Positions 718-22,697 of a DNA stretch of 53,381 nucleotides are shown in pieces. This DNA is from an uncultured Desulfotomaculum sp. (GTDB lineage: Bacteria; Bacillota; Desulfotomaculia; Desulfotomaculales; Desulfotomaculaceae). The DNA lies in assembly GCA_946411205.1 (NCBI GenBank), contig CAMKDG010000005.1:1-53381 (forward strand), given 5' to 3'. The position numbers and the translations under genes are program-made. Numbering within the stretch: position 1 is the stretch's first letter; every line of letters begins with the position of its first letter. The notes below the pieces were generated by a model that saw only the letters and a list, made by a program, of their open reading frames with translations, searched no databases and was not told the origin of the DNA.

Positions 718-839
718 CGGAAATCCCTCCCTTACACCTAATATTATGACCAGGAAAAGCATTCCCCATCTATATCTTGTTCCCCTTTTCGACGTTAACA
801 AGATAAATCCTTTATTATTTTATTACTTTAAAGAAACAA

Positions 840-873
840 AATTGCCGGTTGCTTGGAATAACAACCGACAATT
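840..873. terminator. Hairpin upstream of yerC, possible terminator
   Basis: A 12-bp near-perfect inverted repeat (AATTGCCGGTTG / CAACCGACAATT) with a 10-base loop, followed on the minus strand by TTTTG. It lies between the purD terminator and yerC and may be a second-chance terminator insulating yerC-hisZ from the pur operon. Confidence 0.45.
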
Positions 874-914
874 CGTTACTATTTTTAGATTTAACCAGCT
901 AATAACGATCTTAT

Positions 915-957: not shown

Positions 958-2223
958 TTAGCGATTTACAGCCTTTTGCCCAATATCCTTACGATAGTGA
1001 GCCCCGGCAAAGTGAATGGCCTCTACTCCCTGATACACCCGCTGGATGGCCTCTTGTATGTCTTTCCCGGTGGTAGTTACACCCAGTACTCGACCACCGG
1101 CAGTTACTACCTGGCCATCCCGACTGGTGGTTCCGGCATGGAAAACCACCACACCCTCAGGAACTTCTGTGAGGCCGGTTATCTCCTGGCCCTTTGCATA
1201 GCTGCCTGGATAGCCCGCAGCCGCCATCACCACACAAACCGCTGCCCCATCCTGCCACTGGACTGATTGTTCCGCCAGTCTTCCTTGCAAAATGGCTTCG
1301 ATAATATCCACCAGATCCGTCTCCAGCAGACTTAGCACGGGTTGAGTCTCAGGATCACCAAACCTGGCGTTAAACTCCAGCACCTTGGGTCCGGTTGGCG
1401 TCACCATCAGCCCAGCATATAAAACACCCCGGTAAGGTCTACCCTCTGCTGCCAGAGCCTTCACGGTGGGATAAAGGATGTCCCTTTCCACCACCTTGGC
1501 CAATTCCGGTGTATAAACCGGAGCCGGTGCATAGGCTCCCATGCCACCGGTGTTCGGACCGGTATCCTGATCTCCCACCCGCTTGTGATCCTGGGAGGAC
1601 ACCAAGGGCACGATGGTTTCCCCATCCACAAAGGCCAATACACTGACCTCTTCTCCCTCTAAAAACTCCTCTATGACCACTCGGTCCCCGGCCTGGCCAA
1701 AGGCCCGCTCCGCCATGATAAAATCTACCGCCGCTAAGGCTGTTTCTTCATCCATGGCTACAATAACACCTTTGCCTGCCGCCAAGCCATCTGCTTTAAT
1801 CACGCAGGGGGCACCGTACTGCTTCACATAAGCCCGGGCCTCCTTAGCGGTATCAAAGGTAGCATAGCGGGCCGAGGGAATGTTATATTTGGCCATAATA
1901 TCCTTGGCTAATGCCTTACTGCCTTCAATCTCAGCCGCAGCTCGGGAAGGCCCAAAAATTTTCAGTCCCTGTTGCTGAAATATATCCACAATACCATTGG
2001 TCAGAGGAATTTCCGGCCCCACCACGGTTAGGTCAATCTGTTCCTGTTGGGCAAAGGTCACAAGCCCGGGCACATCCTCCGCTTGGATATTGACACAGGT
2101 TGCCATTTGGGCGATCCCGACATTGCCCGGTGCACAGAAAATTTCCTGTACCTTCGGACTCTGGCGAAGTTTCCAGACCAAAGCATGCTCCCGGCCACCG
2201 CCGCCCACCACCAATACTCTCAT
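958..2223 (-). CDS. purD: Phosphoribosylamine-glycine ligase (GAR synthetase)
   Basis: PurD joins glycine to 5-phosphoribosylamine using ATP, the second step of IMP synthesis. The 421-residue length is normal. Visible are the N-terminal glycine-rich start (VLVVGGGGREHAL), GPEIPLTNG near residue 70, the ATP-grasp segment EEFLEGEEVSVLAF near 185 and FNARFGDPETQ near 285, the metal/ATP-binding site of the fold. A GGAGTG ribosome-binding site precedes the ATG. It is the last gene of the pur operon, 12 bases after purH, and is followed by an intrinsic terminator. Confidence 0.96.
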   Translation of the reverse strand: MRVLVVGGGGREHALVWKLRQSPKVQEIFCAPGNVGIAQMATCVNIQAEDVPGLVTFAQQEQIDLTVVGPEIPLTNGIVDIFQQQGLKIFGPSRAAAEIEGSKALAKDIMAKYNIPSARYATFDTAKEARAYVKQYGAPCVIKADGLAAGKGVIVAMDEETALAAVDFIMAERAFGQAGDRVVIEEFLEGEEVSVLAFVDGETIVPLVSSQDHKRVGDQDTGPNTGGMGAYAPAPVYTPELAKVVERDILYPTVKALAAEGRPYRGVLYAGLMVTPTGPKVLEFNARFGDPETQPVLSLLETDLVDIIEAILQGRLAEQSVQWQDGAAVCVVMAAAGYPGSYAKGQEITGLTEVPEGVVVFHAGTTSRDGQVVTAGGRVLGVTTTGKDIQEAIQRVYQGVEAIHFAGAHYRKDIGQKAVNR

Positions 2224-2235
2224 GTGCGTTCACTC

Positions 2236-3774
2236 CTAATGCTTAAAATGCCGGATGCCGGTAAAAACCATGGCGATGCCGTGCTCATTGCAGGCTTTAA
2301 TGGATTCTTCATCCCGGATAGAACCGCCAGGCTGAATAATGGCTTTAATACCAAACTTAGCTGCTTCATCCACCGTATCCCGAAAGGGGAAGAATGCATC
2401 ACTAGCCAATACAGAACCTCGGGCCTTCTCCCCGGCCTGCTGGTAAGCAATCCGGGCAGAACCTACTCGGTTCATCTGGCCTGCTCCGACTCCGATAATC
2501 TGCCCCTCTTTCGCCAAGACAATGGCGTTGGACTTGACGTGTTTCACCACGGTCATGGCCAGCAGCAACTCCTTCATTTCTGCCGGATCAGGCTGCCTTT
2601 CGGTAACTACCTTTAACTCCTCAAAATCAACAACCACCCGGTCTGTCTGCTGTACCAGCAAACCGCCGTTAACCTTCCTCACTTCCAGCTCATCTGTGGT
2701 CTGCTGGCCAAGATCGCCGGTCTTCAGGACTCTCAGGTTAGGCTTTTGACACAAAATTTCCAAAGCCTCCGGGGCAAAGTCCGGTGCCACAACCGCCTCC
2801 AGGAAAATTTTTGCCATCTCGGCAGCAACCTCAGCATCTACTTCTCTGTTCAAGGCTACGATACCACCGAAGGCTGAAACAGTGTCTGTCTCATAGGCCT
2901 TACGGTAAGCATCCGCCAGGGTTTCGGCCAGAGCCGTACCGCAGGGATTATTGTGTTTAATAATAACGACACAGGGCTCGCTAAATTCTCTTACCAATTC
3001 TAAGGCACTGTTGGCATCTAAAATGTTGTTGTAGGATAACTCTTTCCCGTTAAGTTGCCGAGCATTCGCAATGCAGGGACCGGTCACGGTAGGGTCTTGA
3101 TAAAAGGCTGCCCGTTGGTGGGGGTTCTCCCCGTAGCGCAGGTTTTGTGCCTTTACTAAAGACAGGTTAAATTCCGGCTGGAATTCTTCCTTCCCCATCA
3201 CCCCAGAGAGATAGTTGGCAATGGCTGTGTCGTAGCTGGCTGTATGGGCAAAGGCTTCCCGAGCTAATTCCAACCGTAAAGCTTCTCCCAATTTCCCGTC
3301 CTGCTGCAAAGCTTCCAGCACTTGACCATAGCGGCTGGGATTCACCACGATCCCTACATAGGCATGATTCTTCGCTGCTGCCCGCACCATCGTCGGCCCG
3401 CCGATATCAATGTTCTCTATGGCATCAGCCAGGGTGACCCCAGGCTTAGCAATGGTTTCACGGAAGGGATAAAGATTCACCACCACCAGATCAATGGGGG
3501 TAATATGGTGTTCTTGCAGTTGCTGCAGGTGTTCTTCGTTACGCAGGGCCAGGATGCCGCCGTGGACATTGGGGTGCAGGGTCTTCACCCGGCCTCCCAG
3601 GATTTCTGGAAACCCTGTTACATCCGAGATATAGGTTACTGGCACACCTGCTTCCCGTAGAGTTTTAGCGGTACCCCCGGTGGATACGATCTCCACCCCT
3701 AGGGCAGCTAACCCCTGGGCAAACTGCACCAGTCCCGATTTATCCGAAACACTGATTAAAGCCCGTTTTATCAC
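2236..3774 (-). CDS. purH: Bifunctional AICAR formyltransferase / IMP cyclohydrolase
   Basis: PurH carries out the last two steps of IMP synthesis. The N-terminal MGS-like cyclohydrolase domain (residues 1-145, with [10 protein letters not shown] and [10 protein letters not shown]) is followed by the formyltransferase domain with YGENPHQ and KHNNPCG motifs. The GTG at 3774 is preferred over the GTG two codons upstream because it gives the usual [12 protein letters not shown] start and puts GGCGGG six bases ahead. It follows purN, but with a gap of about 300 bases filled largely by a palindromic element, unlike the tight spacing elsewhere in the operon. Confidence 0.96.
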
Positions 3775-3820
3775 TAACACCCCGCCTTTCGCAATTATTC
3801 TTTCAGTGAAAGGTTAGTTT

Positions 3821-4074: not shown

Positions 4075-4692
4075 TTACTCTTTTGTTTTTACCATAACCC
4101 GCCGCCCCTGAATCTCTAATCTACCCTCAGCAAATAGCTTTACCGCTTGGGGATAAAGCCTATGCTCCTGTTCCAAAATTCTGGCAGCCAGGGTTTCTTC
4201 CGTATCGTCGTCCAATACCGGTACCGCAGCCTGTAAAATAATCGGACCGGTGTCCATTCCTTCATCCACAAAATGCACGGTGCAGCCCGATATCTTTACC
4301 CCATACTGCAGCGCATCCCTTTGACCGTGCAGTCCTGGAAAGGATGGGAGCAAAGCAGGATGAACGTTCATAATGCCGTTGGGGAATGCCTTGAGCAGTG
4401 GTTCACCCACCAAACGCAGATAGCCCGCCAAACACAGAAGTTGTACTTGGAACTGTTGCAGGATACGGACAATGGCCTGCTCATACTCATCTTTGCTGGG
4501 GTAGTCCTTTACCGGCACACTGTAAGCGGCAATCCCCGCAGCTTTGGCCCTTTCCAGAGCATAGGCTGCCGGCTTATCGCTGATCACCACCACCACTTCC
4601 GCCGGAAGCAGTCCAGCCTGACACTGATCGAGTATGGCTTGCAGATTAGAGCCTCGTCCTGAGGCTAGGACACCTATACGTAGTTTCTCCAT
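4075..4692 (-). CDS. purN: Phosphoribosylglycinamide formyltransferase (GAR transformylase)
   Basis: PurN transfers a formyl group from 10-formyltetrahydrofolate to GAR. It has the N-terminal LASGRGSNLQAI phosphate-binding segment, the catalytic NVHPALLPSFPG segment near residue 105 (Asn and His) and DTGPIILQ with the catalytic Asp near 145. The ATG at 4692 is chosen because GGAGGG lies nine bases ahead and family members start at this point; an upstream in-frame ATG at 4731 overlaps the purM stop and would add 13 unrelated residues. The product is 205 residues, normal for the family. Confidence 0.95.
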   Translation of the reverse strand: MEKLRIGVLASGRGSNLQAILDQCQAGLLPAEVVVVISDKPAAYALERAKAAGIAAYSVPVKDYPSKDEYEQAIVRILQQFQVQLLCLAGYLRLVGEPLLKAFPNGIMNVHPALLPSFPGLHGQRDALQYGVKISGCTVHFVDEGMDTGPIILQAAVPVLDDDTEETLAARILEQEHRLYPQAVKLFAEGRLEIQGRRVMVKTKE

Positions 4693-4730
4693 TACAAGTG
4701 ACCCTCCTGTGTTACGGTTCTGTTGACACA

Positions 4731-5783
4731 TTAACCGCGAATATACTCCACACTAGGGCTTCCTGCTAGTACCTTGCCAATTAGATATGCCTGCTCACCC
4801 TGGCTGGCCAATTCCTGCAGAATATTTTCTGCCTCCACGGCAGGAACCACCAGTATCATACCGATGCCCATATTAAAGGTGCGCAGCATTTCTGTCTCGT
4901 CAACCTGGCCAATTTGTTGAATTAGCTGAAATATCGGCAATACCGGCCAAGCGTCACGGTTTAGTACCACTTTAACACCTTCAGGCAAGACGCGTGGAAT
5001 ATTCTCCGTCAGCCCGCCCCCGGTAATGTGGGCCATCCCCTTGACAGTGTATTTTTCCAGCAGGGGCAGCATCGCCTTCACATAAATCCTGGTAGGAGTT
5101 ATTAATTCTTCCCCCACGGTACAACCCAAAGCTTCCACAAAGGTAGCTATCTCATACCCGGCCACTTCCAAAAGAGCTTTACGAGCCAGGGAATAACCGT
5201 TACTGTGCAATCCCGAGGAAGGTAAGCCAATCACTGCATCTCCTGCCCCAATGGTGCTGCCGTCAATAATTTTTTGCCGATCTACCACACCCACTGCAAA
5301 GCCAGCGATGTCGTACTCTTCTTCGCCGTAAAAGCCGGGCATTTCTGCCGTTTCTCCACCAATCAAGGCACAACCGGCCTGACGGCAGCCTTCAGCCACA
5401 CCGGCTACAATATCGGCTACCCTTTCCGGTACCAGCTTACCCACGGCTAAATAATCTAGAAAGAACAAAGGCTCAGCACCCTGCACCAAAATGTCGTTGA
5501 CACACATGGCCACGGCATCAATGCCAATGGTGTTGTGTCGGCCCGTTAGCTGGGCCACCCGTAGTTTGGTGCCCACCCCATCGGTACCGGAAACCAGGAC
5601 CGGTTCTTGATATTTCTTGGTGTCCAGAGCAAAGAGCCCACCAAAGCCACCCAGATCGGTCAGTACGCCTGGCCGAAAGGTGCTGCGTACCGCTTGCTTC
5701 ATTAAAGATACGGCTCGGTTGCCAGCTTCTATATCAACCCCTGCACTGGCATAGGTGAGGGGCTGGGATTTTATTTCTGTCAT
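4731..5783 (-). CDS. purM: Phosphoribosylformylglycinamidine cyclo-ligase (AIR synthetase)
   Basis: PurM closes the imidazole ring of AIR with ATP. The 350-residue protein shows [10 protein letters not shown] near residue 65, [11 protein letters not shown] near 140 and [10 protein letters not shown] near 255, all typical of the PurM/PurL ATP-binding superfamily. It follows purF by 12 bases and is preceded by GGGGAGTG. It sits in the conserved purF-purM-purN order. Confidence 0.96.
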
Positions 5784-5795
5784 CGGTACACTCCC

Positions 5796-7220
5796 CTATT
5801 CCAGACTAAACTTAGCATTCTCCTTAGACCGGGGTACTTCCACTGGATAATTACCGTCAAAACAGGCCGTACAAAAGCAATCCTGCTTCGGAGTAAAAAT
5901 ATCCAGCAGTCCTTCTATGCTTAAGTAATGCAAGCCATCGGCTTGAATGGTCTGCTTGATCTCCGCCAAGGGCTTTTGTGCTGCAATAAGTTGCTGTTCA
6001 TCGGAGGTATCAATCCCATAATAGCAAGAGCGCAATACCGGTGGCGAACTAATGCACAGGTGCACTTCCTTGGCTCCGGCTTCCCGTAACATGGCTACCA
6101 ACTTCTGGCTGGTGGTGCCCCGCACAATGGAGTCGTCCACCATCACCACCCGCTTACCCTCCAGCACTTCCCGAATGGCATTGAGTTTTAACCTTACACC
6201 AATCTCTCGCATCTGCTGAGTAGGTTGAATAAAGGTGCGGCCGATATAACGATTTTTCATTAATCCTTCTTCAAAGGGAATACCCGATTCCTCTGCGTAA
6301 CCTCGGGCCGCAGCCACACCAGAATCCGGTACAGGAATGACAATGTCTGCCTCCACCGGATACTCTCTGGCCAACTGACGACCCATTTCCCGGCGTACCC
6401 GGTTCACATTAAAGCCGTCCATGGTGCTGTCCGGGCGGGCAAAGTAAATGTATTCAAAAATACAATGAGCTGGGTTTTTAGCGCGCAATCCTTGGGTGGA
6501 GCTAAGACCTTCCCGATCTATACGAATGATTTCTCCGGGCTCAATATCCCGAACAAAGGAGGCTCCCACCGTGTGTAAGGCGCAGGATTCCGAAGCCACC
6601 ACATAGCCCTTGTCCAAACGGCCCAGACAGAGCGGCCGAAAGCCATAGGGATCTCTGGCCGCATACAATGCATCTTCGGTGATAACTAACAGGGAATACG
6701 CTCCTTTAACATCAATCATACATTTCATCAAAGCTTCTTCCAAGCTATTAGCATTGTAACGGGCAATGAGGTTCACCAACACTTCACTATCCGTGGTGGA
6801 CTGGAATACCGAGCCACTATAAGCCAACTGCGACCGCAGTTCTGTAATATTCGTTAAATTGCCGTTGTGGGCCAGTCCGATCATGCCCTTAGCATAACGG
6901 AAAACCAAGGGCTGCGCATTCAGGGGTTGGCTGCCACCGGTGGTCGAATAGCGAACATGACCGATGGCTACATGGCCGGTTAACTTGTCCAGACAATGAC
7001 CGGTAAAGACCTCTGGCACCAATCCCATACCCTTTTGAAGTTCCACTTGTTGACCATTGGCCACAGCTATACCGGCACTTTCCTGTCCCCGGTGCTGCAA
7101 GGCATAGAGACCATAATAGGTTAGCTTGGCCACATCCAAACCAGAACCATAAATACCGAAAACTCCACATTCCTCCACCGGCTTGTCTGGTAGTACAAAG
7201 GGCTCTACTGCATTAGACAT
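5796..7220 (-). CDS. purF: Amidophosphoribosyltransferase (glutamine PRPP amidotransferase)
   Basis: PurF makes phosphoribosylamine from PRPP and glutamine, the committed step. The N-terminal propeptide ends before Cys18 ([10 protein letters not shown]), the glutaminase nucleophile after processing. The PRPP loop [13 protein letters not shown] lies near residue 355. Cysteines in [14 protein letters not shown] and in the C-terminal FCTACF match the iron-sulfur-containing Bacillus-type enzyme (known for the family; cluster inferred). The ATG at 7220 is preferred, with GGGGGG seven bases ahead; an upstream TTG at 7238 also exists. The start overlaps the purL end by 16 bases. It consumes the ligand sensed by the operon leader. 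Confidence 0.95.
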
Positions 7221-9430
7221 GGTATCGCCCCCCGCCAAGTCTCTGCTAGTTTAGCAACCGGCAGGTTCAACAAATTGCCGCCGCAACCACTGCAGCCGGG
7301 ATTCACTACGTTCAGCAGCAAAGAATCACCTGTCACCTTACCCAATTGGGTATAGGGCACGCCGGCCGCCACCATTTTCTTCACCAGTTCCACCGAGCTA
7401 TCTTGCTTGACAGTTATAATAATCCGGGATTGGGATTCACCAAAGAGCAGGGCATCCCCTCTAAAGCGACGCACCATGGTAATATCTGCTCCCAAATTAC
7501 CAGCAATACAACATTCTGCCAAAGCCACGGCTAGGCCACCCTCGGCGCAGTCGTGGGCGGATTGGATCAACCCGCTCTTAATTTCTGCTAAAACCAATTG
7601 CTGTACTTTTTTCTCTAATTCCAGAGTAAGCACTGGGGCATTCCCCTGCTCCAATCCGAAATGAATTTTCAAATATTCACTGCCGCCCAGTTCTGGCAGA
7701 TTTTCACCAAGCAGGAAAATGACATCTCCCTCTTGTTTAAAGCCCTGGGTGCAGACCTTGTTCAAATCTTCTACCAATCCGACCATGCCAATGGTCGGCG
7801 TAGGGTAAACTGCATTACCTTTGGTTTCGTTATACAAACTGACATTGCCGCCGGTAACCGGAGTCTCCAGCATCCGGCAGGCTTCAGCCATGCCTTCAAC
7901 GCATTGCCAAATGGTCCACATTACTTCGGGTTTTTCCGGGTTGCCAAAATTGAGGCAGTTTGTGACAGCCAGAGGCTTCGCACCGGAACAAACCAAATTG
8001 CGAGCGGCTTCAGCCACGGCAATGGCTGCACCGGTTTTCGGGTTCAGGTAGCAGTAACGTCCGTTGCAATCGGTGGTCATGGCGATACCTTTGTTGGTAT
8101 CCTTTACTCGCAGCACCGCTGCATCGGAGCCAGGCCGGACCACCGTGTTAAGTCCCACCATGTGATCGTACTGTTGGTAAACATACTCTTTACTGGCAAT
8201 ATTGGGTGAAGCCAAAAGCTTCAGCAACACTTCATTGTAATCATCGGGCATGGTCAAGGCATCCACGGGGTAATCCTGTACTTCCGCTAAATAGGCCGGC
8301 TTCTCCGTAGGACGATGATACACCGGAGCTTCATCGGTTAAGGCCTTAGCCGGTATTTCAGCCACTACCTTGTCGCCTTCCTTCAGGCGTAAGAGACCAT
8401 CAGCGGTAACTTGGCCTACTACTACCGAGTCTAAATCCCACTTAGCAAAGATTTCTGTTACTTTCTCCTCGGTACCCTGTTGTACCACCAACAACATCCG
8501 TTCTTGAGATTCCGAAAGCATCAATTCATAGGGTGTCATGCCCTCTTCCCGGCGAGGTACCAATGCTAAATCCATTTCCAAGCCGGTACCGGCCCGGCTG
8601 GCCATTTCACAGGAGGAACTGGTGAGACCTGCCGCTCCCATATCTTGAATACCCACCACATAACCAGTTTTAATCACTTCCAGGCAAGCTTCCAGCAGCA
8701 GTTTCTCCATAAAGGGGTCACCCACCTGTACGGCGGGACGCCTTTCCGCTGCCGCTTCGGATAATTCCTCAGAGGCAAAGGTGGCACCGTGAATACCATC
8801 TCGACCGGTTTTCGCACCCACCACCATCACGGGGTTACCAACGCCGGAGGCCACCCCTTTTTTAATATCCTTTTGGTCGATGAGTCCTACACACATCACA
8901 TTGACCAGACAATTATCTTCGTAACTATCAGCAAAGTATACTTCGCCCCCCACCGTGGGTACACCAATGCAGTTGCCGTAGCCGCTGATACCAGCCACTA
9001 CGCCATCAAAGAGATAACGCACCCGAGGGCTGTGGAGTTCGCCAAAACGCAGGCTGTCCAGCACGGCAATAGGACGGGCTCCCATGGTAAAGATATCTCG
9101 CAAGATGCCCCCCACACCGGTGGCTGCCCCTTGATAAGGTTCGATCGCCGAAGGGTGGTTATGACTCTCAATCTTGAAGACCACCGCTTGTCCATCACCA
9201 ATATCAACAATACCGGCATTTTCACCGGGTCCTTGCAAAATGGCCGGTCCCTCGGTGGGCAAGGTTTTTAAAGCGGGTCGGGAGGTTTTATAGCTACAGT
9301 GTTCAGACCACATCACGGCAAAGATGCCAACCTCCACATAGTTTGGCTGTCGACCCAAAATAGTCACAATTCTCTCATATTCATCGTCGGTGAGGCCCAT
9401 CTCGCGCCAGATTTGCGGCTCTAATGTCAT
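7205..9430 (-). CDS. purL: Phosphoribosylformylglycinamidine synthase II (FGAM synthetase large subunit)
   Basis: This 741-residue small-type PurL catalyses the ATP-dependent amidation of FGAR together with PurQ (glutaminase) and PurS, both encoded immediately upstream. Visible motifs are [21 protein letters not shown] near residue 95 and [12 protein letters not shown] near 645. The ATG follows directly on the purQ stop, with GGAGGTG as ribosome-binding site. Near the C-terminus is an unusual PGCSGCGGN segment, a CxxC in a glycine-rich loop not expected in most PurL proteins. Confidence 0.96.
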
Positions 9431-10132
9431 CTAGCCACACCTCCTCTGCCACTGTTGTAAAAGGGATTGAAAAATAAGTTGACCGTCGGTATTGCCTAGG
9501 ATATCTTCTGCACAGCGCTCCGGATGAGGCATCATGCCCAGTACGTTGCCCTGGCTGTTGCAGATACCGGCGATGTTATTAACGGAGCCATTGGGATTGG
9601 CTGCTGGAGTGATTTCTCCGTAGGAATCACAGTAACGGAACAAAACTTGCTTATTCTCTTCCAGTTGCTGGATAGTAGCTGCATCGGCATAGTAGTTCCC
9701 TTCACCATGGGCAATGGGAACACGAATCACCTGTCCTGCCGCTGCCAGACAAGTAAAGGGAGTTTGATTGTTTTCTATTCTTAAGTAGCTATCGTGACAA
9801 AGGAATTGTAGATTTTTATTGCGATGCAAAGCACCGGGTAACAGCCCCGCTTCAGTAAGAATTTGGAAGCCGTTACAAATGCCCAGCAAGAACCCTCCCC
9901 TTTGGGCAAAGTCAATGATCGGTGTCATCACTGGCGAGAATCTGGCCACGGCACCGCATCTTAGATAATCTCCGTAGGAAAAACCCCCAGGCAGCACAAT
10001 ACAATCAAAACCATCCACGCTACCCGATTTATGCCAAATGTATTCTACCGGCTGCCCGGTGACAACTTTAATGGCGTGCAGGCAGTCGGCGTCACAATTG
10101 GAGCCGGGGAATACCACCACTCCAAATTTCAC
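9431..10132 (-). CDS. purQ: Phosphoribosylformylglycinamidine synthase I (glutaminase subunit)
   Basis: PurQ is the class I glutamine amidotransferase subunit supplying ammonia to PurL. The nucleophile elbow [11 protein letters not shown] (Cys near residue 86) and the C-terminal [11 protein letters not shown] with catalytic His and Glu are clear, as is [14 protein letters not shown] start with GGAGGTG a few bases ahead. It lies between purS and purL with almost no spacing, matching a PurSQL complex. Confidence 0.96.
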
Positions 10133-10135
10133 GCT

Positions 10136-10384
10136 TTACACCTCCACCAATTCAAATGTATAATCTTCAATGACCGGATTTACCAGCAGCTTGTCACACA
10201 TATCCCGAACTTGCTTGGCTGCTGCGTCTTGGTCTGCTACCTCGAGGTCCACGACCATATAACGGCCAATGCGAACCTCCGGTACATTTTGATATCCCAT
10301 GGCATAAAGTGACTTACGGACCACACCGCCCTGCGGATCAAGAACACTTTTTCTAAGGGTAACGTAAATTTTGGCTTGGAACAA
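10136..10384 (-). CDS. purS: Phosphoribosylformylglycinamidine synthase subunit PurS
   Basis: PurS is the small dimeric bridging subunit of the FGAM synthetase complex. The sequence AKIYVTLRKSVLDPQGGVV followed by VRIGRYMVVDLEV is typical. The open frame extends to 10435, but a TTG at 10384 with GGGGG eight bases ahead gives 82 residues, the normal length; the upstream 17 residues (ERRINYKPN...) are not family-like. It is followed after three bases by purQ. Confidence 0.9.
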   Translation of the reverse strand: MFQAKIYVTLRKSVLDPQGGVVRKSLYAMGYQNVPEVRIGRYMVVDLEVADQDAAAKQVRDMCDKLLVNPVIEDYTFELVEV

Positions 10385-10495
10385 CGCTAGTACCCCCTTT
10401 TTTGTGTTAGGCTTATAGTTTATTCTTCTTTCCAAGGTGTAAACAGTTTTAATCGTAGCAACTAGGTACTAATGGCCAAAGGTTCTAAATCGGCC

Positions 10496-11203
10496 CTACT
10501 CTCCACCGAGCCGCTTTAGCACTTCCTGATACGCATCTTCTACGCCGCCCATATCCCTGCGAAAGCGGTCTTTATCCAGTTTTTCTCCGGTGGTTTTGTC
10601 CCAAAAGCGACAGGTGTCGGGAGAAATTTCATCAGCCAGCAACACTTGGCCATGGTGTACGCCGAATTCTAATTTGAAGTCAATGAGGTCGATGTTGGCA
10701 GGAGCTAAAAATTCCCGCAGAATATCGTTTACCTGCAGGGAGATTTCTTTAATGATCGCCATCTGTTCCGGAGTGGCTAAATTCAGTGCAGCAATGTGAG
10801 AGGCGTTAATGAGTGGGTCACCCAGTGCATCATCTTTATAATAATATTCAAGAACCGTTTTCGGCAGAAGCGTTCCTTCCGGTAAACCGACTCTTTTGGC
10901 CAAACTACCAGCCACAATATTTCTTACCACTACTTCTACCTTGATAATTTCCACAGCTTTAACAACCATTTCACGGTCATTAATCAATTGCACAAAATGA
11001 GTGGCAATCCCCTTTTCTTCCAACATTTTAAAGAAAACAGCAGATAACTTGTTGTTCACCACACCTTTGTTATCAATGGTGCCTTTTTTCTGACCATTAA
11101 AGGCCGTGGCGTCGTCTTTGTACTCCACCCAATATAAATCCGGGCTGTCGGTACGGTACACCTTCTTGGCTTTACCTTCATAAATCATCTCTAACTTCTG
11201 CAC
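10496..11203 (-). CDS. purC: SAICAR synthetase
   Basis: PurC joins aspartate to CAIR with ATP. The protein has [15 protein letters not shown] at the N-terminus (ATP-binding), [12 protein letters not shown] near residue 37, and [14 protein letters not shown] near 190. Length 235 is usual. GTG start with GGGAGGAG upstream. It is separated from purB by about 110 bases containing a long hairpin and from purS by about 110 bases with no evident signal. Confidence 0.96.
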
Positions 11204-11239
11204 AGGAACTCCTCCCTCTTTTGAGCGGTGAGCTGGGCG

Positions 11240-11278
11240 AGGGTAAGACTTCGATTTTTAAAAATCGAAGTCTACCCT
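11240..11278. repeat. Long perfect hairpin between purB and purC
   Basis: The inverted repeat AGGGTAaGACTTCGATTTTT / AAAAATCGAAGTCTACCCT forms 19 pairs with a single bulged base and practically no loop. A further six pairs (GGTGAG / CTCACC at 11227-11232 and 11286-11291) enclose it. There is no T-run directly after it on the minus strand, so it looks more like an RNA stability, processing or attenuation element, or an insertion remnant, than a simple terminator. Confidence 0.7.
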
Positions 11279-11314: not shown

Positions 11315-12607
11315 CTATAAGCCAAACCTTGCATAAATATCGTCAATATGGCCTAAGTGGTAGCTGTAATCAAAGAGGCCTTGTAATTCTTCGGAAGTGA
11401 GTTGTTGTTTGATAGCTGTATCTGCTTCCAGTAATTCAATAAAACGAGTGCCGGTGCGCCAGGCTTCCATGGCGTTGCGCTGCACCAGTTCGTAGGCCTG
11501 TTCTCTGGTTAATCCCTTGTCTACCAAGGCTAGCAATACTCGTTGGGAAAATACCAAGCCCAAGGTTTTTTCCAGATTACGCTTCATGTTCTCTGGATAC
11601 ACCAGAAGTTTTTCCATAACACCAGTAAATCGGACAATCATGAAGTCCAGAGCGGTAGTACTATCAGGAATAATCACCCGCTCGGCAGAGGAATGGGAAA
11701 TATCCCGTTCATGCCAGAGGGTTACGTTATCCAAAGCTGCCATAGCGTTGGCCTTCACCACTCGGCTGAGGCCGGAAACATTTTCAGCGGTGATGGGGTT
11801 ACGTTTATGGGGCATGGCCGAGGAACCCTTTTGCCCCTTATTGAAATACTCTTCCACTTCTAAAATATCTGTCCGCTGCAGGTTGCGAATTTCCGTGGCA
11901 AATTTATCCAAGGAGGCGGCAATGACAGCCATGGTGCAAAGATAATCGGCATGTCGATCCCGCTGAAGAATTTGAGTAGACACCCGAGCGGGTTTTAGCC
12001 CCAATTTGCGGCAAACATACGCTTCGATGCGAGGATCAATATTGGCATAGGTTCCTACCGCACCGGAGATGGCCCCAACACTGACCGCCTTAATGGCCTG
12101 CTCCAAACGTTCAATATTACGTTCCGTTTCAGCCACCCACAGCAGCATCTTTAAACCAAAGGTCATGGGTTCGGCATGGATACCATGGGTACGGCCAATC
12201 ATCAGAGTTTGACGATGTTCCTTGGCCTTTTCCAGTAACACCTCACGGAGACGCTGCAAACGCGTTAGGACATGTTCACCGGCTTCTTTCATCCGAACAC
12301 ATTGCGCGGTATCCACAACATCAGAAGAGGTTAGGCCCATATGGATGTATTTAGAGTCTTCCCCAACGTTTTCGGCCACACAGGTTAAAAAAGCAATGAC
12401 GTCGTGCCGGGTAACTTCTTCGATTTCTAAAATACGTTCTACGGTAAAGTAGGCCTTGGCCTTAATGTTTTCTACCGCTTCAGCCGGAACCTGACCCAGT
12501 TCCACCATGGCTTCGCAAGCAGCAATTTCCACATCCAGCCACTTTTGAAACTTGTTTTGATCCGACCAGATATGTTTCATTTCAGGTAGGGTGTAGCGAT
12601 CAATCAT
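11315..12607 (-). CDS. purB: Adenylosuccinate lyase
   Basis: PurB cleaves SAICAR to AICAR and adenylosuccinate to AMP, releasing fumarate. The superfamily signature GSSAMPHKRNP lies near residue 260, with TSSDVVDTAQ near 85 and MIGRTHGIHAEP near 135. ATG at 12607 (MIDRYTLPEM) with GGAGGA nine bases ahead is preferred to the upstream start that adds MNGGTDS. The product is 430 residues, normal for the Bacillus-type enzyme. It follows purE by about 30 bases. Confidence 0.96.
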   Translation of the reverse strand: MIDRYTLPEMKHIWSDQNKFQKWLDVEIAACEAMVELGQVPAEAVENIKAKAYFTVERILEIEEVTRHDVIAFLTCVAENVGEDSKYIHMGLTSSDVVDTAQCVRMKEAGEHVLTRLQRLREVLLEKAKEHRQTLMIGRTHGIHAEPMTFGLKMLLWVAETERNIERLEQAIKAVSVGAISGAVGTYANIDPRIEAYVCRKLGLKPARVSTQILQRDRHADYLCTMAVIAASLDKFATEIRNLQRTDILEVEEYFNKGQKGSSAMPHKRNPITAENVSGLSRVVKANAMAALDNVTLWHERDISHSSAERVIIPDSTTALDFMIVRFTGVMEKLLVYPENMKRNLEKTLGLVFSQRVLLALVDKGLTREQAYELVQRNAMEAWRTGTRFIELLEADTAIKQQLTSEELQGLFDYSYHLGHIDDIYARFGL

Positions 12608-12639
12608 GGAATCGGTTCCTCCGTTCATATGAACTATAA

Positions 12640-13173
12640 CTATTTATTCGTCTCGTGCCCTCTAGGGTATAAGTAGCCTTCAACACCTAGCTCCTTTAGG
12701 CGGGCATCCTTTGCTTCTACTTCCCGAGCCAAATCCTCTTTAAGCTGCCGAAGCTTGGCAGCCAATGCTTCATCTGCTGTGGCCAGTATTTGTACTGCCA
12801 GTATGGCTGCATTTTTCGCCCCGTTAATGGCTACTGAGGCCACAGGAATTCCCGGCGGCATCTGGGCAATGGAATACAGAGCATCTACCCCATCCAAAGC
12901 ACCGGATTTAACCGGCACCCCAATCACAGGTAGTATGGTGTGAGCCGCAATAACACCCGGCAGGTGAGCTGCCAAACCGGCAGCGGCAATAATTACCTTG
13001 AGGCCTCTGTCTTCAGCCGTTTTGGCATAGGTCGCTGTTTTTTCCGGTGCCCGGTGAGCGGAAGAAATGGTTAGTTCATAAGAAATCCCCATCTTATCGA
13101 ACAGCTTGACAGTGTCTTTCATCAAGGGCAGATCAGAGTCACTACCTAGTACAATACCAACCTGAGGATTCAT
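12640..13173 (-). CDS. purE: N5-carboxyaminoimidazole ribonucleotide mutase (PurE)
   Basis: PurE forms CAIR. The 177-residue protein has the GSDSDLPLM start, SSAHRAPEKT near residue 40 and AAGLAAHLPGV near 70, of class I (bacterial) PurE type rather than the animal class II type, whose motifs differ. Class I enzymes normally receive N5-CAIR from PurK, but no purK is seen in this operon. AGGAGG lies ahead of the ATG. First enzyme gene after the permease. Confidence 0.94.
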   Translation of the reverse strand: MNPQVGIVLGSDSDLPLMKDTVKLFDKMGISYELTISSAHRAPEKTATYAKTAEDRGLKVIIAAAGLAAHLPGVIAAHTILPVIGVPVKSGALDGVDALYSIAQMPPGIPVASVAINGAKNAAILAVQILATADEALAAKLRQLKEDLAREVEAKDARLKELGVEGYLYPRGHETNK

Positions 13174-13191: not shown

Positions 13192-14568
13192 TTATTCTCC
13201 ACCTAAGAAGACAAAGCGAGCAATAATGATGACAAAGAGCAAATACATCATCCAGTGAACCTCTTTAGCCCGACCGGACAACACTTTTAAAATCGTGTAG
13301 AAAATGATACCGGCAGCAATCCCGTTGGCAATATTATAAGTCAAGGGCATTAAAATCAGTGTCATAAAGGCAGGAAATCCTTCGGCAAAATCGTTAAAGT
13401 CGATTTCACTGATGGCAGATACCATCAAAAGTCCTACAATGATTAACGCGGGAGAAGTGGCAGCACTGGGAATTAAACCCGCCAGCGGTGCAATAACCAA
13501 TGCTAGCAGGAACATCACACCGGTGGTCACAGCGGTCAAACCGGTACGTCCTCCTTCGCCTACACCGGCAGCACTTTCTACATAAGAGGTTACGGTGCTG
13601 GTACCCATAAAGGAACCAAAGGAAACCCCCAGTGCATCCACCAACATGGCTTTTCCAATTTTCGGGGACTGACCATTCTTATCCAGCAGACCCGCTTTGT
13701 TGGCGGTTCCTACTAACGTACCGAAGGTATCGAACAGTTCTACAAAGGTAAAGGTGAATACCACTGTCCAGAGACCCATTTTCAAAGCACCCATAATATC
13801 CAGATGGCCTACATATAAACCACTGAAATTAGGCATGGAAAAGGGGGTGAAATGTTCGGGGATGACTGTAACTCCCATTGGGATACCAATCAGAGTGGAA
13901 ATAACAATACCAATTAACAGGGAGCCCTTCACTTTTCTCGCCATTAGAATAGCCGTGATGACTAGGCCGATAATCGCTAACATGGTAGAGGGGTTATGGA
14001 AGGAACCCATGAAAATGTTCCATTCGAAGAAATTTAGGGTAGCCACGCCGCCATCCTTCTGTAAGGCTTCCAGGGTAGGAGGAATGACAGGACCCGCTTT
14101 AATAATGGTAATTTCGGACATTTTTAAACCAACGACGGTGATAAACAAGCCAATACCAACCGTAATAGCCCGTTTTAGTGAATTAGGAATAGCCACCATC
14201 AAGATTTGACGAACCTGAGTTACGGTAAGAATAAAAAAGATAATACCAGAAATGAATACGGCTCCTAGAGCAACTTGCCAGGGCATACCCACTCCCTGAG
14301 CAGCCACCGCAGCAAAGTAAGCGTTCAGACCCATGCCGGGAGCCAGTGCAATGGGGAAATTGACAAACAGACCCATGGCAATGGTAACAACACCGGCTGC
14401 CACAGCGGTGGCAAAGAACACTGCATTCTTATCCATACCGGTTCCGGCAAGGATATTGGGGTTGAGGAACAGAATGTAGGCCATGGTCATAAAGGTTGTT
14501 AGGCCTGCCACAATTTCAGTTCTAACTGTGGTCTTGTTTTCTTGGAGTTTAAATAACTGTTCCAACAC
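13192..14568 (-). CDS. NCS2-family guanine/hypoxanthine/adenine permease (PbuG/AzgA-like)
   Basis: A polytopic membrane protein of about 458 residues with 12 or more hydrophobic segments, of the AzgA-like branch of purine transporters. Family-like segments are TFMTMAYILFLNPNIL near residue 27 and APGMGLNAYFA near 75, plus FTFTFVELFDTFGTLVG. The GTG at 14568 with AAGGAGG ahead and the usual LEQLFKLQENKTTVRTEIVAG start is preferred to an upstream ATG at 14667 that lies in the leader. It is the first gene after the tandem guanine-PRPP leader, so uptake and synthesis of purines are controlled together. The exact base transported is not decidable from sequence. Confidence 0.9.
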   Translation of the reverse strand: MLEQLFKLQENKTTVRTEIVAGLTTFMTMAYILFLNPNILAGTGMDKNAVFFATAVAAGVVTIAMGLFVNFPIALAPGMGLNAYFAAVAAQGVGMPWQVALGAVFISGIIFFILTVTQVRQILMVAIPNSLKRAITVGIGLFITVVGLKMSEITIIKAGPVIPPTLEALQKDGGVATLNFFEWNIFMGSFHNPSTMLAIIGLVITAILMARKVKGSLLIGIVISTLIGIPMGVTVIPEHFTPFSMPNFSGLYVGHLDIMGALKMGLWTVVFTFTFVELFDTFGTLVGTANKAGLLDKNGQSPKIGKAMLVDALGVSFGSFMGTSTVTSYVESAAGVGEGGRTGLTAVTTGVMFLLALVIAPLAGLIPSAATSPALIIVGLLMVSAISEIDFNDFAEGFPAFMTLILMPLTYNIANGIAAGIIFYTILKVLSGRAKEVHWMMYLLFVIIIARFVFLGGE

Positions 14569-14696
14569 GTGATGTTTCCTCCTTAGAATAAAAAAGATAA
14601 TTTCGGTGTACCCAGTGTTCCTTGGTTTTTCCAGGTTATTATTGCCTCTTACATTTTTTCCATACAAACAGAGGGTTTAACAACCATCTAAGAAAA

Positions 14697-14758
14697 CCAA
14701 AAAAGCCCAGAACGATAGATTCCAGCTCATCAGAGTGAAACCTACCGCCTGGGCTTTT
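14697..14758 (-). terminator. Attenuator terminator of the guanine-PRPP leader
   Basis: On the minus strand AAAAGCCCAG pairs with CTGGGCTTTT, followed by more T residues. The 5' arm overlaps the conserved AAAAGCCC stretch of the PRPP aptamer, so ligand-bound aptamer and terminator should be mutually exclusive. This is the single expression platform for both aptamers. Confidence 0.85.
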
Positions 14759-14844
14759 ATCCCTATCGGTGTAGCGTAAACGCCTGTACCGCTTGGACCA
14801 AACCAACCCCTCAGAGGTTGTGGAACCCTAGGTACACTTTCCCC
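14737..14844 (-). promoter_or_regulatory. PRPP riboswitch aptamer (ykkC subtype 2b)
   Basis: The minus strand reads AAAGTGTACCTAGGGTTCC, then TTTGGTCCAAGCGGTACAGGC, then GCTACACC and AGGGATAAAAGCCCAGGC, and ends GGTAGGTTTC. These are the conserved elements of the ykkC subtype-2 riboswitches, and the 3' end closely matches PRPP-sensing members. PRPP aptamers normally switch genes on when PRPP is abundant, matching control of purine synthesis. It sits directly downstream of a guanine aptamer and shares its terminator. Subtype assignment (PRPP rather than ppGpp) is by resemblance and context. Confidence 0.9.
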
Positions 14845-14907
14845 CCGTAGTCCAGCAATTACGGTTGCCGGGTAGAAACGCTCGGGCCAATTCCCAAGCA
14901 TATACGG
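14845..14907 (-). promoter_or_regulatory. Purine riboswitch aptamer, guanine type
   Basis: The minus strand shows a purine-riboswitch three-way junction: P1 CCGTA/TACGG, J1/2 TATA, P2 with the GAATTGG loop, the core GTTTCTACC, and P3 with the ACCGTAAT loop. The specificity position (plus-strand 14850) is C on the RNA (GGACTACG), predicting guanine/hypoxanthine rather than adenine. It directly abuts the PRPP aptamer and has no terminator of its own. Confidence 0.92.
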
Positions 14908-14931
14908 AAAATATTCAATTTGCACAACCCA

Positions 14932-14960
14932 ATAGTAACAAGACCAAGAACGTTTGTCAA
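14932..14960 (-). promoter_or_regulatory. Promoter of the purine permease/pur operon
   Basis: TTGACA (14955-14960) and TACTAT (14932-14937) on the minus strand with exactly 17 bases between them, a near-consensus housekeeping promoter. Transcription would start just ahead of the guanine aptamer. Confidence 0.85.
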
Positions 14961-15054: not shown

Positions 15055-16857
15055 CTATACTTGCTCAGATACAATTAAATCGACAAATTGGAAAGTAACA
15101 GTATCCACTAAGCCTCGGTTGGTGACTCTCAATTCCGGCAGCACTGCCAAAGGCAACAAGGCCATGGTCATAAAGGGTGAAATCAAATGGCAACCCAGCT
15201 CTTTCCAAGCCTGATCCAACGCTTCCACTAACTCTGCTACCTGTTCCACCGATTGGTCAGACATTAAGCCGGCAATGGGCAGAGGTAGTAAGGCCATCAC
15301 TTGCCCGTCCCGTACTGCCACCATACCGCCCCCCACCTCGATCAGCTTGTTCCCAGCCAGTGCCATATCATGATCATTGGTACCAACCACTAACAAGTTG
15401 TGACTATCGTGAGCGACGGTGGAAGCCACCGCTCCTGCCTTTAGGTGAAAACCTTTGACAAAGCCTTTACCCATCGTACCCGTTGCTTTGTGCCGTTCAA
15501 TAACGGCCACCTTGATGACATCTTGCACCAAATCAATTTCTACTTCACCCTGTTGTACCGGCAGCAGGCATTCACGGGCCAAGGTGCCTACCTTGGCTTC
15601 CATAATTTCCATGACACGCACCTGTGCCTTGGTGGTTTCAGGGTTACTGGTGGAGATAATAAAATCTTCCGGTTTTAAAGGTGCTGCCAGGTGCATGGAC
15701 TGACGGGCAAACTCAGGATACGTTACCGCTGGCAGGTCTACCAACATACGTCCATCTGCTGCCACCAGTTCTCCATTAACCAAAACCTTTTCTACCTTCA
15801 CTTTGGTTAAATCGCTAATGAGGAGAATATCTGCCCAGCGGCCTGGGGAAATACTGCCTAAATCACGGTCCATGCTAAAGCACTGGGCCACATTAAGGGT
15901 AACCATTTGGATAGCCGTCACCGGATTTACCCCTTCCTCGATGGCCCGTTTCACAATATGATCCATGTGGCCCAGAGATAGCAAGGTATTCGGGTGGGTA
16001 TCATCACTAACCAATGTGGCGTAGCGGCTATCAATGCGGTTTTCGGTGATGCTTTTAATGGTTTCTTTAACATCGTGCCAAGCAGAACCTTCCCTGAGCT
16101 GAGCATACATACCCAACCGCATTTTAGCCAGAGCATCCTCCGCCCGTACAGACTCGTGGCAGCAGCGAATACCAGTGGACACATAGGCATTCAATCCCTG
16201 ACCGGTTTCTGGAATGGAAAAGTGTCCGGTGATGGTCTTGTTGGCCCCCAAAGTAGCCTGAAGCTCAGCATGAATGTTGGGATCGCCATACATTACGCCG
16301 GGAAAATTCATCATTTCTCCCAATCCAGCCACTTCTTCCCACTGCATCGCCTCTCGAATTTCAGCCGGCCCCAACACCGCACCGGCATCCTCAAAGGCAG
16401 GGGTAGCCGGTACGCAGGAAGGCATGGCTACGTAAACACGCAGCGGTACTTGTTTACCATCTTCAATCATTAATTTTATACCATCCATGCCCAGCACGTT
16501 GGCAATTTCGTGGGGGTCCATATAAATGGTGGTAGTTCCCCGGGGTACCACACTGCGGGCATATTCCCGTACTGTCATCATACTGCTCTCAACATGGATA
16601 TGGCCATCCATAAAGCCGGGGGTCAGATAATTCCCCTGACAATCAATCACCTGAGTACCCTCACCAATGGTATGAGAAGCATCGCCCACCAGAGCAATTC
16701 GACCGTGGGTAATGGCAACATCCAGGTTCGGCATAATCTCTCCGGTGTTTACATTAACCAGCCGGCCATTCTTTAAAACCACTTCTGCCGGTTTACGGCC
16801 CATGGCCACAGACGCTAATTCCTGTGTAACTTCCGCTAAAGGATATCTTTTTTTCAT
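15055..16857 (-). CDS. ade: Adenine deaminase
   Basis: Ade converts adenine to hypoxanthine and ammonia, feeding salvage through Hpt. The 600-residue protein is an amidohydrolase with the metal-binding GHIHVESSMM near residue 83 and MDPHEIANVLGMDG near 113, and the typical C-terminal KGFVKGFHLKAGAVAST. Length is slightly above the Bacillus enzyme. The ATG follows AGGAGGAG. No clear terminator separates it from the downstream pur promoter, so some read-through into the pur operon is possible. Its own leader carries an attenuator and PRPP-aptamer-like sequence. Confidence 0.95.
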   Translation of the reverse strand: MKKRYPLAEVTQELASVAMGRKPAEVVLKNGRLVNVNTGEIMPNLDVAITHGRIALVGDASHTIGEGTQVIDCQGNYLTPGFMDGHIHVESSMMTVREYARSVVPRGTTTIYMDPHEIANVLGMDGIKLMIEDGKQVPLRVYVAMPSCVPATPAFEDAGAVLGPAEIREAMQWEEVAGLGEMMNFPGVMYGDPNIHAELQATLGANKTITGHFSIPETGQGLNAYVSTGIRCCHESVRAEDALAKMRLGMYAQLREGSAWHDVKETIKSITENRIDSRYATLVSDDTHPNTLLSLGHMDHIVKRAIEEGVNPVTAIQMVTLNVAQCFSMDRDLGSISPGRWADILLISDLTKVKVEKVLVNGELVAADGRMLVDLPAVTYPEFARQSMHLAAPLKPEDFIISTSNPETTKAQVRVMEIMEAKVGTLARECLLPVQQGEVEIDLVQDVIKVAVIERHKATGTMGKGFVKGFHLKAGAVASTVAHDSHNLLVVGTNDHDMALAGNKLIEVGGGMVAVRDGQVMALLPLPIAGLMSDQSVEQVAELVEALDQAWKELGCHLISPFMTMALLPLAVLPELRVTNRGLVDTVTFQFVDLIVSEQV

Positions 16858-21155: not shown

Positions 21156-22697
21156 CTACTCCCACTCAATGGTGCCCGGAGGCTTGGAGGTGATGTCATA
21201 AACCACACGGTTAATCTCGGCCACCTCGTTCACCAGGCGGGTAGAGATATTGCCCAGTATGTCGTGGGGAATCTTCGCCCAGTCGGCAGTCATGCCATCG
21301 TGGCTGTAGACAGCTCGCACTACGGCAGCGTAAGCATAGGTACGTCCGTCACCCATGACGCCAACACTGCGCATATCAGGCAGAACGGCAAAGTATTGCC
21401 AGATTTCTCTATCTAGGCCCGCCCGCTTGATTTCATCGGTAACTACGAAATCTGCTTCTCGCAAAATCTCCAGCTTCGGCTTCGTAATTTCTCCCAGAAT
21501 CCTTACTGCAAGACCTGGGCCGGGGAAAGGCTGGCGCCAAACAATTTCAACGGGTAGGCCTAATTCCTCACCCAGCCGGCGAACTTCGTCCTTAAACAGC
21601 CAGCGTAGGGGTTCCACCAATTCAAACTTCATATCTTCGGGCAATCCCCCCACGTTATGATGGGATTTAATCACCGCTGCTGTGGCAGTACCACTTTCCA
21701 CCACGTCGGGATACAGGGTGCCCTGTACAAGAAAATCAATTTCTCCCAGTTTTCTGGATTCTTCCTCAAACACTCGGATAAATTCAGTACCAATGATCTT
21801 CCGTTTTTGTTCCGGATCGGTAACACCCTTTAATTTTTCCAGGAAACGTTCTGCTGCGTCTACATGCACCAGTTTGATATTAAATAAGTCACGAAAGGTC
21901 TTAACTACCTGCTCGGCCTCATTTTTCCTCAACAACCCGTGATCCACAAAGACGCAGGTGAGGTTATCGCCCACTGCTCGGTGTACCAATACGGCTGCTA
22001 CCGAAGAGTCCACACCGCCGCTCAGGGCGCAAAGTACCTTGCGGTTACCTACCCGTTGCTTGACCTCCTGAATAGCTTCTGCGGAGAAAGAACCCATATT
22101 CCAGGTGCCACTACAGCTACAGATCGCAAAAAGGAAATTCTTTAATATTTCTGTACCCCTGGGGGTATGTAAAACTTCGGGGTGGAACTGCACTGCATAA
22201 AGGCTTCTTTCTTTATTGGCCATGGCTGCAATGGGAGCCTTATCCGTGCTGGCAGTTATCTCAAAACCCGGAGGAACTGCCTCCACACGGTCCCCATGGC
22301 TCATCCAGCATTCTTCATCTGCTGCCAATCCTTTAAATAAATTATCACACTGAACAACCTTCAGGTTGGTACGGCCATACTCGCGATCTTCTGCAGAAAC
22401 GACTTTACCCTGCAGTTGGTGGGTCATAAGCTGCATACCGTAGCAAATGCCCAATACCGGAACCCCTAGTTCGTATACCCGTGAATCAATGGTAGGTGCA
22501 TTCTCTCCGTAAACACTAGACGGCCCGCCAGAGAAAATTATCCCCTTAGGCTGTTTGGCTTTAATTTTATCGATTGCTACATTATAAGGTTCAATTTCAC
22601 AGTATACATTGCAATCCCTAATGCGACGAGCAATGAGTTGGGTGTATTGCCCCCCAAAGTCCAGGACTAAAATCAGTTCCTGTTCGGCTAAAGACAT
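21156..22697 (-). CDS. guaA: GMP synthase (glutamine-hydrolysing)
   Basis: GuaA aminates XMP to GMP. The N-terminal class I amidotransferase domain has GICYGMQL (catalytic Cys near residue 84) and FHPEVLHT (His, Glu near 170). The ATP-pyrophosphatase domain has the P-loop [12 protein letters not shown] near 228, and the C-terminal dimerisation domain ends KPPGTIEWE, the classical GuaA end. 513 residues, normal. AAGGAGG precedes the ATG. It follows hpt by 12 bases. Confidence 0.97.

Follow-up and report, generated by a model that had tools for sequence, protein, structure and literature searches.

A predicted tandem guanine–PRPP riboswitch before an AzgA-type permease and pur operon in a Desulforamulus genome, with covariation in relatives bearing on a putative strand shared by its two aptamers

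Results

Organization of the locus

The window, by which we mean the whole 53,381-nt stretch of DNA that was analyzed, corresponds to contig 5 of a 3.62-Mb draft genome in 210 contigs, and the 95-99% identity of most of its proteins to those of D. aeronauticus indicates a Desulforamulus close to that species. All of the features in Table 1 lie on the minus strand, where a promoter is followed by two aptamers, a terminator and an operon that begins with a permease gene and continues with eleven pur genes, which agrees with the "ten or more" of a first-pass annotation of the same DNA. That annotation had called the first gene product a purine permease, which the domain match bears out, and since its best solved relatives are the plant adenine/guanine permeases AZG1/AZG2 (E 1.5e-66), AzgA-type would be the better name. 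Judging from the Shine-Dalgarno sequence AAGGAGG and from relatives that align from about residue 30, the permease most likely starts at GTG 14568, and the TTG at 14667 that had been listed as its start would fall in the 5' untranslated sequence. Directly upstream of the riboswitch is a second adenine deaminase gene (15055-16857, minus strand), and guaA, encoding GMP synthase, lies farther up (21156-22697, minus strand); neither of these two genes is preceded by a purine or ykkC aptamer in the window, which in the case of guaA is in line with a GMP branch outside the tandem regulon.

Table 1. Predicted features of the riboswitch and its operon
Feature	Position	Strand	Basis or detail
Promoter	14932..14960	-	TTGACA (14960-14955), N17, extended -10 TG-T-TACTAT (TACTAT 14937-14932)
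Guanine-type purine aptamer	14828..14927	-	RF00167
Guanine aptamer P1	14909-14903/14849-14843	-
Guanine aptamer P2	14899-14893/14886-14880	-
Guanine aptamer P3	14871-14865/14858-14852	-
Putative shared switching strand	14843..14849	-	guanine P1 3' strand
PRPP aptamer (ykkC subtype 2b)	14737..14843	-	RF00442 match; subtype bases compared with PMC6031431 and across tandems
PRPP aptamer 5' tail GGGAAAGU	14843-14836	-
PRPP aptamer P1	14836-14831/14790-14785	-
PRPP aptamer P3 GGG/CCC	14763-14761/14753-14751	-
PRPP aptamer 3' tail ...AGGUUUC	ends 14737	-
PRPP helix P0 core GAAA/UUUC	14841-14838/14740-14737	-
Single intrinsic terminator	14699..14756	-	AAGCCCAGG...CUGGGCUU and U run; stem -33.8 kcal/mol
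AzgA-type purine permease (NCS2/PF00860), 458 aa, first gene	13192..14568	-	PF00860 7.6e-42
purE	12640..13173	-	AIRC 3e-63
purB (adenylosuccinate lyase)	11315..12628	-
purC	10496..11203	-	SAICAR_synt 9.2e-90
purS	10136..10435	-
purQ	9431..10132	-
purL	7205..9430	-
purF	5796..7238	-	GATase and phosphoribosyltransferase domains
purM	4731..5783	-
purN	4075..4731	-	TIGR00639 5.8e-74
purH	2236..3780	-	PRK00881 1.2e-236
purD, last gene of the operon	958..2223	-	TIGR00877 4.6e-175
Operon-end terminator	839..874	-	15 bp stem, U-rich tail; next minus-strand terminator outside coding sequence, after purD

Two abutting aptamers

A covariance-model search for both aptamers had been proposed as a check, and cmscan of the whole window placed both above threshold, the first as RF00167 (Purine; 73.9 bits against a threshold of 37, E 2.6e-11) and the second as RF00442 (14842-14744; 65.6 bits, cut-off 63, E 1.8e-9), the latter under the label "Guanidine-I". 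Beyond these two, no Rfam match in the window exceeded its gathering threshold, and under permissive search settings both assignments were unchanged, with no family scoring better for either aptamer. The ykkC-type aptamer overlaps the outer edge of the purine aptamer match, such that the two directly abut, and the gap from the 3' end of guanine P1 (14843) to the start of PRPP P1 (14836) is 6 nt, within the 5-7 nt that separate the two P1 stems in tandems of the guanine–PRPP type (PMC5912903). The span initially assigned to the element (14697-14907) covers the switch, but it stops short of the promoter and of the purine model's outer 5' edge.

The first aptamer forms a three-way junction with the conserved core, both J2/3 GUUUCUACC and J3/1 AC being found, and its specificity base in J3/1, at the ligand-pairing position, is C14850. 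Adenine-type purine aptamers have U at this position, and we read the first aptamer as guanine-type, the C-specific purine aptamer of the first-pass annotation. Its kissing loops L2 and L3 (14880-14899 and 14852-14871, minus strand) have 6 nt where 7 are usual; most Desulforamulus copies also have 6, two genomes have 7 or mixed lengths, and the GG/CC contacts are retained.

In the case of the second aptamer, the Rfam label is not decisive, because a single Rfam model serves guanidine-I and its variants. The published distinctions are made at two positions of the T. mathranii aptamer: position 49 is A in guanidine-I and a pyrimidine in subtype 2, and position 96 is G in PRPP aptamers and another base in ppGpp aptamers (PMC6031431). 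We mapped both onto the window RNA by reading the Rfam alignment alongside the papers' descriptions. The equivalent of position 49 is C14791, with a pyrimidine there in 109/109 tandem-pattern sequences, and that of position 96 is G14749, the first G of CCCAGGCGG and the one that is paired in the Rfam model, with G in nearly all tandem-pattern sequences in which the site can be read. The extended conserved tails GGGAAAGU (5') and AGGCGGUAGGUUUC (3'), which form P0, are present as well, and together with C14791 and G14749 they argue for an aptamer of the PRPP subtype despite its Rfam name, as had been suggested.

Promoter and expression platform

The near-consensus promoter described earlier agrees with the consensus at 10/12 positions and carries the TG extension, and a TTGACA/TG-N-TAnnAT box stands just before the aptamers in 27/29 leaders of the own genus and related families, whereas the promoter scan by itself did not rise above chance (2 found against 1.8 expected). 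Every family leader compared has the terminator, and only one of them lacks a U tract. No terminator was found between the guanine and PRPP aptamers, in keeping with the single one originally noted, so one expression platform would be common to both. Its 5' arm contains the 3' strand of PRPP P3, the conserved AGGCGGUAGG tail and the 3' strand of P0, an overlap that would make the terminator and the folded PRPP aptamer incompatible, as expected of an ON switch.

Tandems in this genome and in relatives

The genome has three guanine–PRPP tandems, namely the window copy and one each on contigs 74 and 54. The contig 74 tandem (locus L009:4974-7027) precedes genes for an adenine deaminase, a xanthine-dehydrogenase-like molybdenum subunit and a BMP-family (nucleoside-type) ABC transporter, which belong to salvage or breakdown and lie outside the IMP-synthesis genes emphasized in the 2018 paper on this riboswitch type. 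The contig 54 tandem precedes a BMP-family (nucleoside-type) ABC transporter and xanthine phosphoribosyltransferase (xpt). This tandem and the transporter gene are separated by a cold-shock protein gene of opposite orientation (contig 54, about 10597-11253; locus L008:2598-3254), whose stop codon adjoins the riboswitch terminator, and that terminator may serve both directions; six Desulforamulus genomes share the arrangement, and the related family lacks it. The guanine aptamer on contig 54 (L008:2598-2697), like the L076 and L083 copies, has an A.A mismatch at the first P3 pair, which is usually C-G, U-A or A-U; the mismatch was seen in three closely related species and may weaken or change ligand binding. 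We considered this variant as a case of changed ligand specificity and rejected it, as other clades have U-A or A-U for this pair and only the A.A mismatch is unusual.

We searched 80 relatives and inspected the flanks of their tandems. The permease-plus-pur arrangement and the transporter arrangement are each present in both the genus and a related family, and the adenine deaminase arrangement was found in four genomes of the genus. Nine further tandem loci in the genus and related families have identical architecture and gene order, which also recur across Clostridia, Negativicutes, Halanaerobiales and Tissierellia. When genome contigs were scanned for the tandem pattern, at least 80 loci were obtained from these groups and others, a few of them with no recognizable purine aptamer. 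Among the matches listed, an AzgA-type permease is the first recognized gene in 37 of 80 tandem-pattern loci, and the permease-first order, which had been singled out as a point of interest, is thus the commonest arrangement among them. At one locus before a permease and pur operon (L081; genome G007, contig 18, 70500-78100), the guanine aptamer seems to consist only of P1 closing one hairpin next to an intact PRPP aptamer; this may be an assembly error, the genome being incomplete with many frameshifts.

A putative strand shared by guanine P1 and PRPP P0

For T. mathranii, mFold predictions led to the proposal that guanine P1 and PRPP P0 cannot form at the same time (Knappenberger, Reiss and Strobel 2018, PMC6031431). 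In the tandems collected here, guanine P1 has a 3' strand that typically reads UAUGAG or UACGAG and passes into the PRPP 5' tail UGAAAG, and the end of this strand is complementary to the sequence that follows the P0 3' strand (UUUC-R-CUC). In the window copy, 14845-14843 can alternatively pair with 14735-14733, extending P0 across one G.A mismatch. A Thermoanaerobacter tandem with GAGUGAAA/UUUCACUC is an example of a stronger relative. It limits the case for strand sharing that an extended P0 also occurs in some PRPP elements that have no guanine aptamer.

The duplex of P0 and its extension has a mean energy of -7.09 kcal/mol with its own partners and -5.76 (sd 0.23) with swapped partners, and 0/300 permutations were as low. 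Covariation was read from 45 distinct sequences that have the commonest spacing and align without gaps, a set outside of which Desulforamulus falls with its 8-nt spacing and G.A mismatch. For guanine P1, 100% of the cells with changes on both sides are paired, and covariation is 0.359 where shuffling gives 0.166. For the four extension pairs 89.4% are paired, and their covariation of 0.422 compares with 0.255 after shuffling and 0.193 for the best slide. These statistics ignore kinship, and the changes fall largely between clades and represent few independent events. Three alignment columns are common to the P1 and P0-extension helices, and in one family the middle common column has changed from A to U and both of its partners from U to A (P1 CAC/GUG, extension GUG/CAC), which is the clearest double change and belongs to one clade. 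The covariation across Bacillota thus supports the mutual-exclusion model that had been proposed for one species.

In the window copy itself both competing helices are weak, P1 being rich in G.U pairs and P0 carrying the G.A mismatch (own P0 duplex -5.3 kcal/mol), and nearest-neighbor folding gives -64.3 for the P1 state and -62.8 to -63.0 for the P0 state, which does not separate them. As the 7-bp P1 can coexist on paper with the 4-bp P0 core, exclusion in this copy would have to come from the extension, from sterics or from ligand binding. It is conceivable, if unlikely, that P1 and P0 have no base pairs in common here and that the aptamers interfere only sterically: a steric clash is among the options given by Sherlock et al. 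(PMC5912903) and the compatibility of the two helices would fit it, but in relatives the extension pairs are retained and covary, in the same columns as P1.

Discussion

The element in the window is very probably a tandem guanine–PRPP riboswitch that acts by transcription termination and belongs to the known IMPLY type. Covariance models, diagnostic bases, gene content and a comparison with about 100 other loci all support its identity, with guanine and PRPP aptamers, one terminator and a permease-plus-pur operon, and from the sequence we infer the ligand binding, truth table and strand-competition kinetics of this copy. RNA polymerase would start just before the guanine aptamer. Guanine would steady P1 and thereby weaken the PRPP aptamer, hindering helix P0 and the PRPP pocket, such that the P3 and P0 3' strands would be left free, the terminator could form and the operon would be off. 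Bound PRPP would hold P0 and P3 and make the terminator 5' arm unavailable, and transcription would then proceed into the permease and pur genes whether or not guanine was present. When both ligands are absent, the published example leans to "on", though the ligand-free default state could deviate in the window copy.

The first-pass annotation had recognized that tandem guanine–PRPP logic gates were already described, and it proposed that the operon would be switched on by low guanine and high PRPP. Such an AND-NOT logic, with expression only in that combination, would be expected if each aptamer acted independently through its own platform, but the only terminator lies downstream of the PRPP aptamer with none between the two, and the tested homologue follows IMPLY. 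In that homologue, the B. megaterium codA tandem, expression is on with neither ligand and on with PRPP even when guanine is added, the sole off state being guanine without PRPP (PMC5912903), and a 2022 review explicitly rejects a NOT-A-AND-B gate for the tandem (PMC9481103). We consider the AND-NOT reading improbable, and the published IMPLY gate corrects the proposal.

A ppGpp ligand (subtype 2a) for the second aptamer deserves very little weight. The scaffold and tails are alike, one position accounts for most of the difference between subtypes 2a and 2b, and the change G96A makes the scaffold ppGpp-specific (PMC6031431). The window RNA, however, retains the G that is absent from ppGpp aptamers, at 14749, as do nearly all of the compared tandems; ppGpp elements go with branched-chain amino acid genes rather than pur genes and are paired with T boxes (PMC5912903), whereas the window RNA has one platform in common with a guanine aptamer.

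That the second aptamer senses guanidine, making the pair a guanine/guanidine switch, is less credible still: the ykkC scaffold is the same and the RF00442 match exceeds the gathering score (by only 2.6 bits, to a model built mostly on guanidine-I RNAs), but the guanidine-defining A is replaced by C, the subtype 2 tails are present, the downstream genes are those of purine synthesis, and a separate RF00442 copy on contig 117 of the same genome does carry the A and lies before small-multidrug-resistance-type exporter genes. The contig 117 copy would be the expected guanidine-I case, an internal contrast to the window copy. The Rfam matches at 14744-14842 (minus strand) include no separate PRPP family, and automated annotation from Rfam alone would name the element a guanidine-I riboswitch.

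The PRPP-type tandem in the window is itself a textbook case, a well-formed example, as judged from its sequence, of a riboswitch type described in 2018 and in its commonest gene setting, and its value is comparative. We lean toward a broader reading in two parts, that in most tandems across Bacillota the P1 3' strand would genuinely switch between two alternative partners, covarying with each, and would provide the physical basis of the IMPLY gate, and that in Desulforamulus the gate would run a regulon for the whole purine economy, from synthesis and the uptake of bases and nucleosides to adenine deamination and xanthine phosphoribosyltransferase, and not IMP synthesis alone. Communication between the aptamers was listed as unresolved in both 2018 and 2022, and the set gathered here supplies covariation for strand sharing between P1 and P0; it also places tandems before purine uptake and salvage genes, beyond IMP synthesis. 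These additions, a comparison of mechanism and the scope of the regulon, are modest. Literature searches on the species, on permease or adenine deaminase genes with PRPP riboswitches and on P1/P0 covariation returned no further papers.

Among the closest comparators, the T. mathranii tandem and PRPP aptamer structure (PMC6031431) shares the predicted exclusion of guanine P1 and PRPP P0, which there comes from an mFold prediction for one species, whereas here it is addressed by covariation over a broad set in which the P0 extension is weaker in Desulforamulus. The tandem guanine–PRPP riboswitch of Sherlock, Sudarsan, Stav and Breaker (2018, eLife 7:e33908), with 127 examples at the time and 192 in the 2022 review (PMC9481103), has the same aptamer order with almost no spacing, a single terminator that overlaps the PRPP aptamer, and pur genes downstream. 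The window copy differs in having an AzgA-type permease first, where the main text of 2018 gives most weight to genes for IMP synthesis and to codA and does not mention permeases, and its sister tandems in this genome differ in also preceding salvage and uptake genes.
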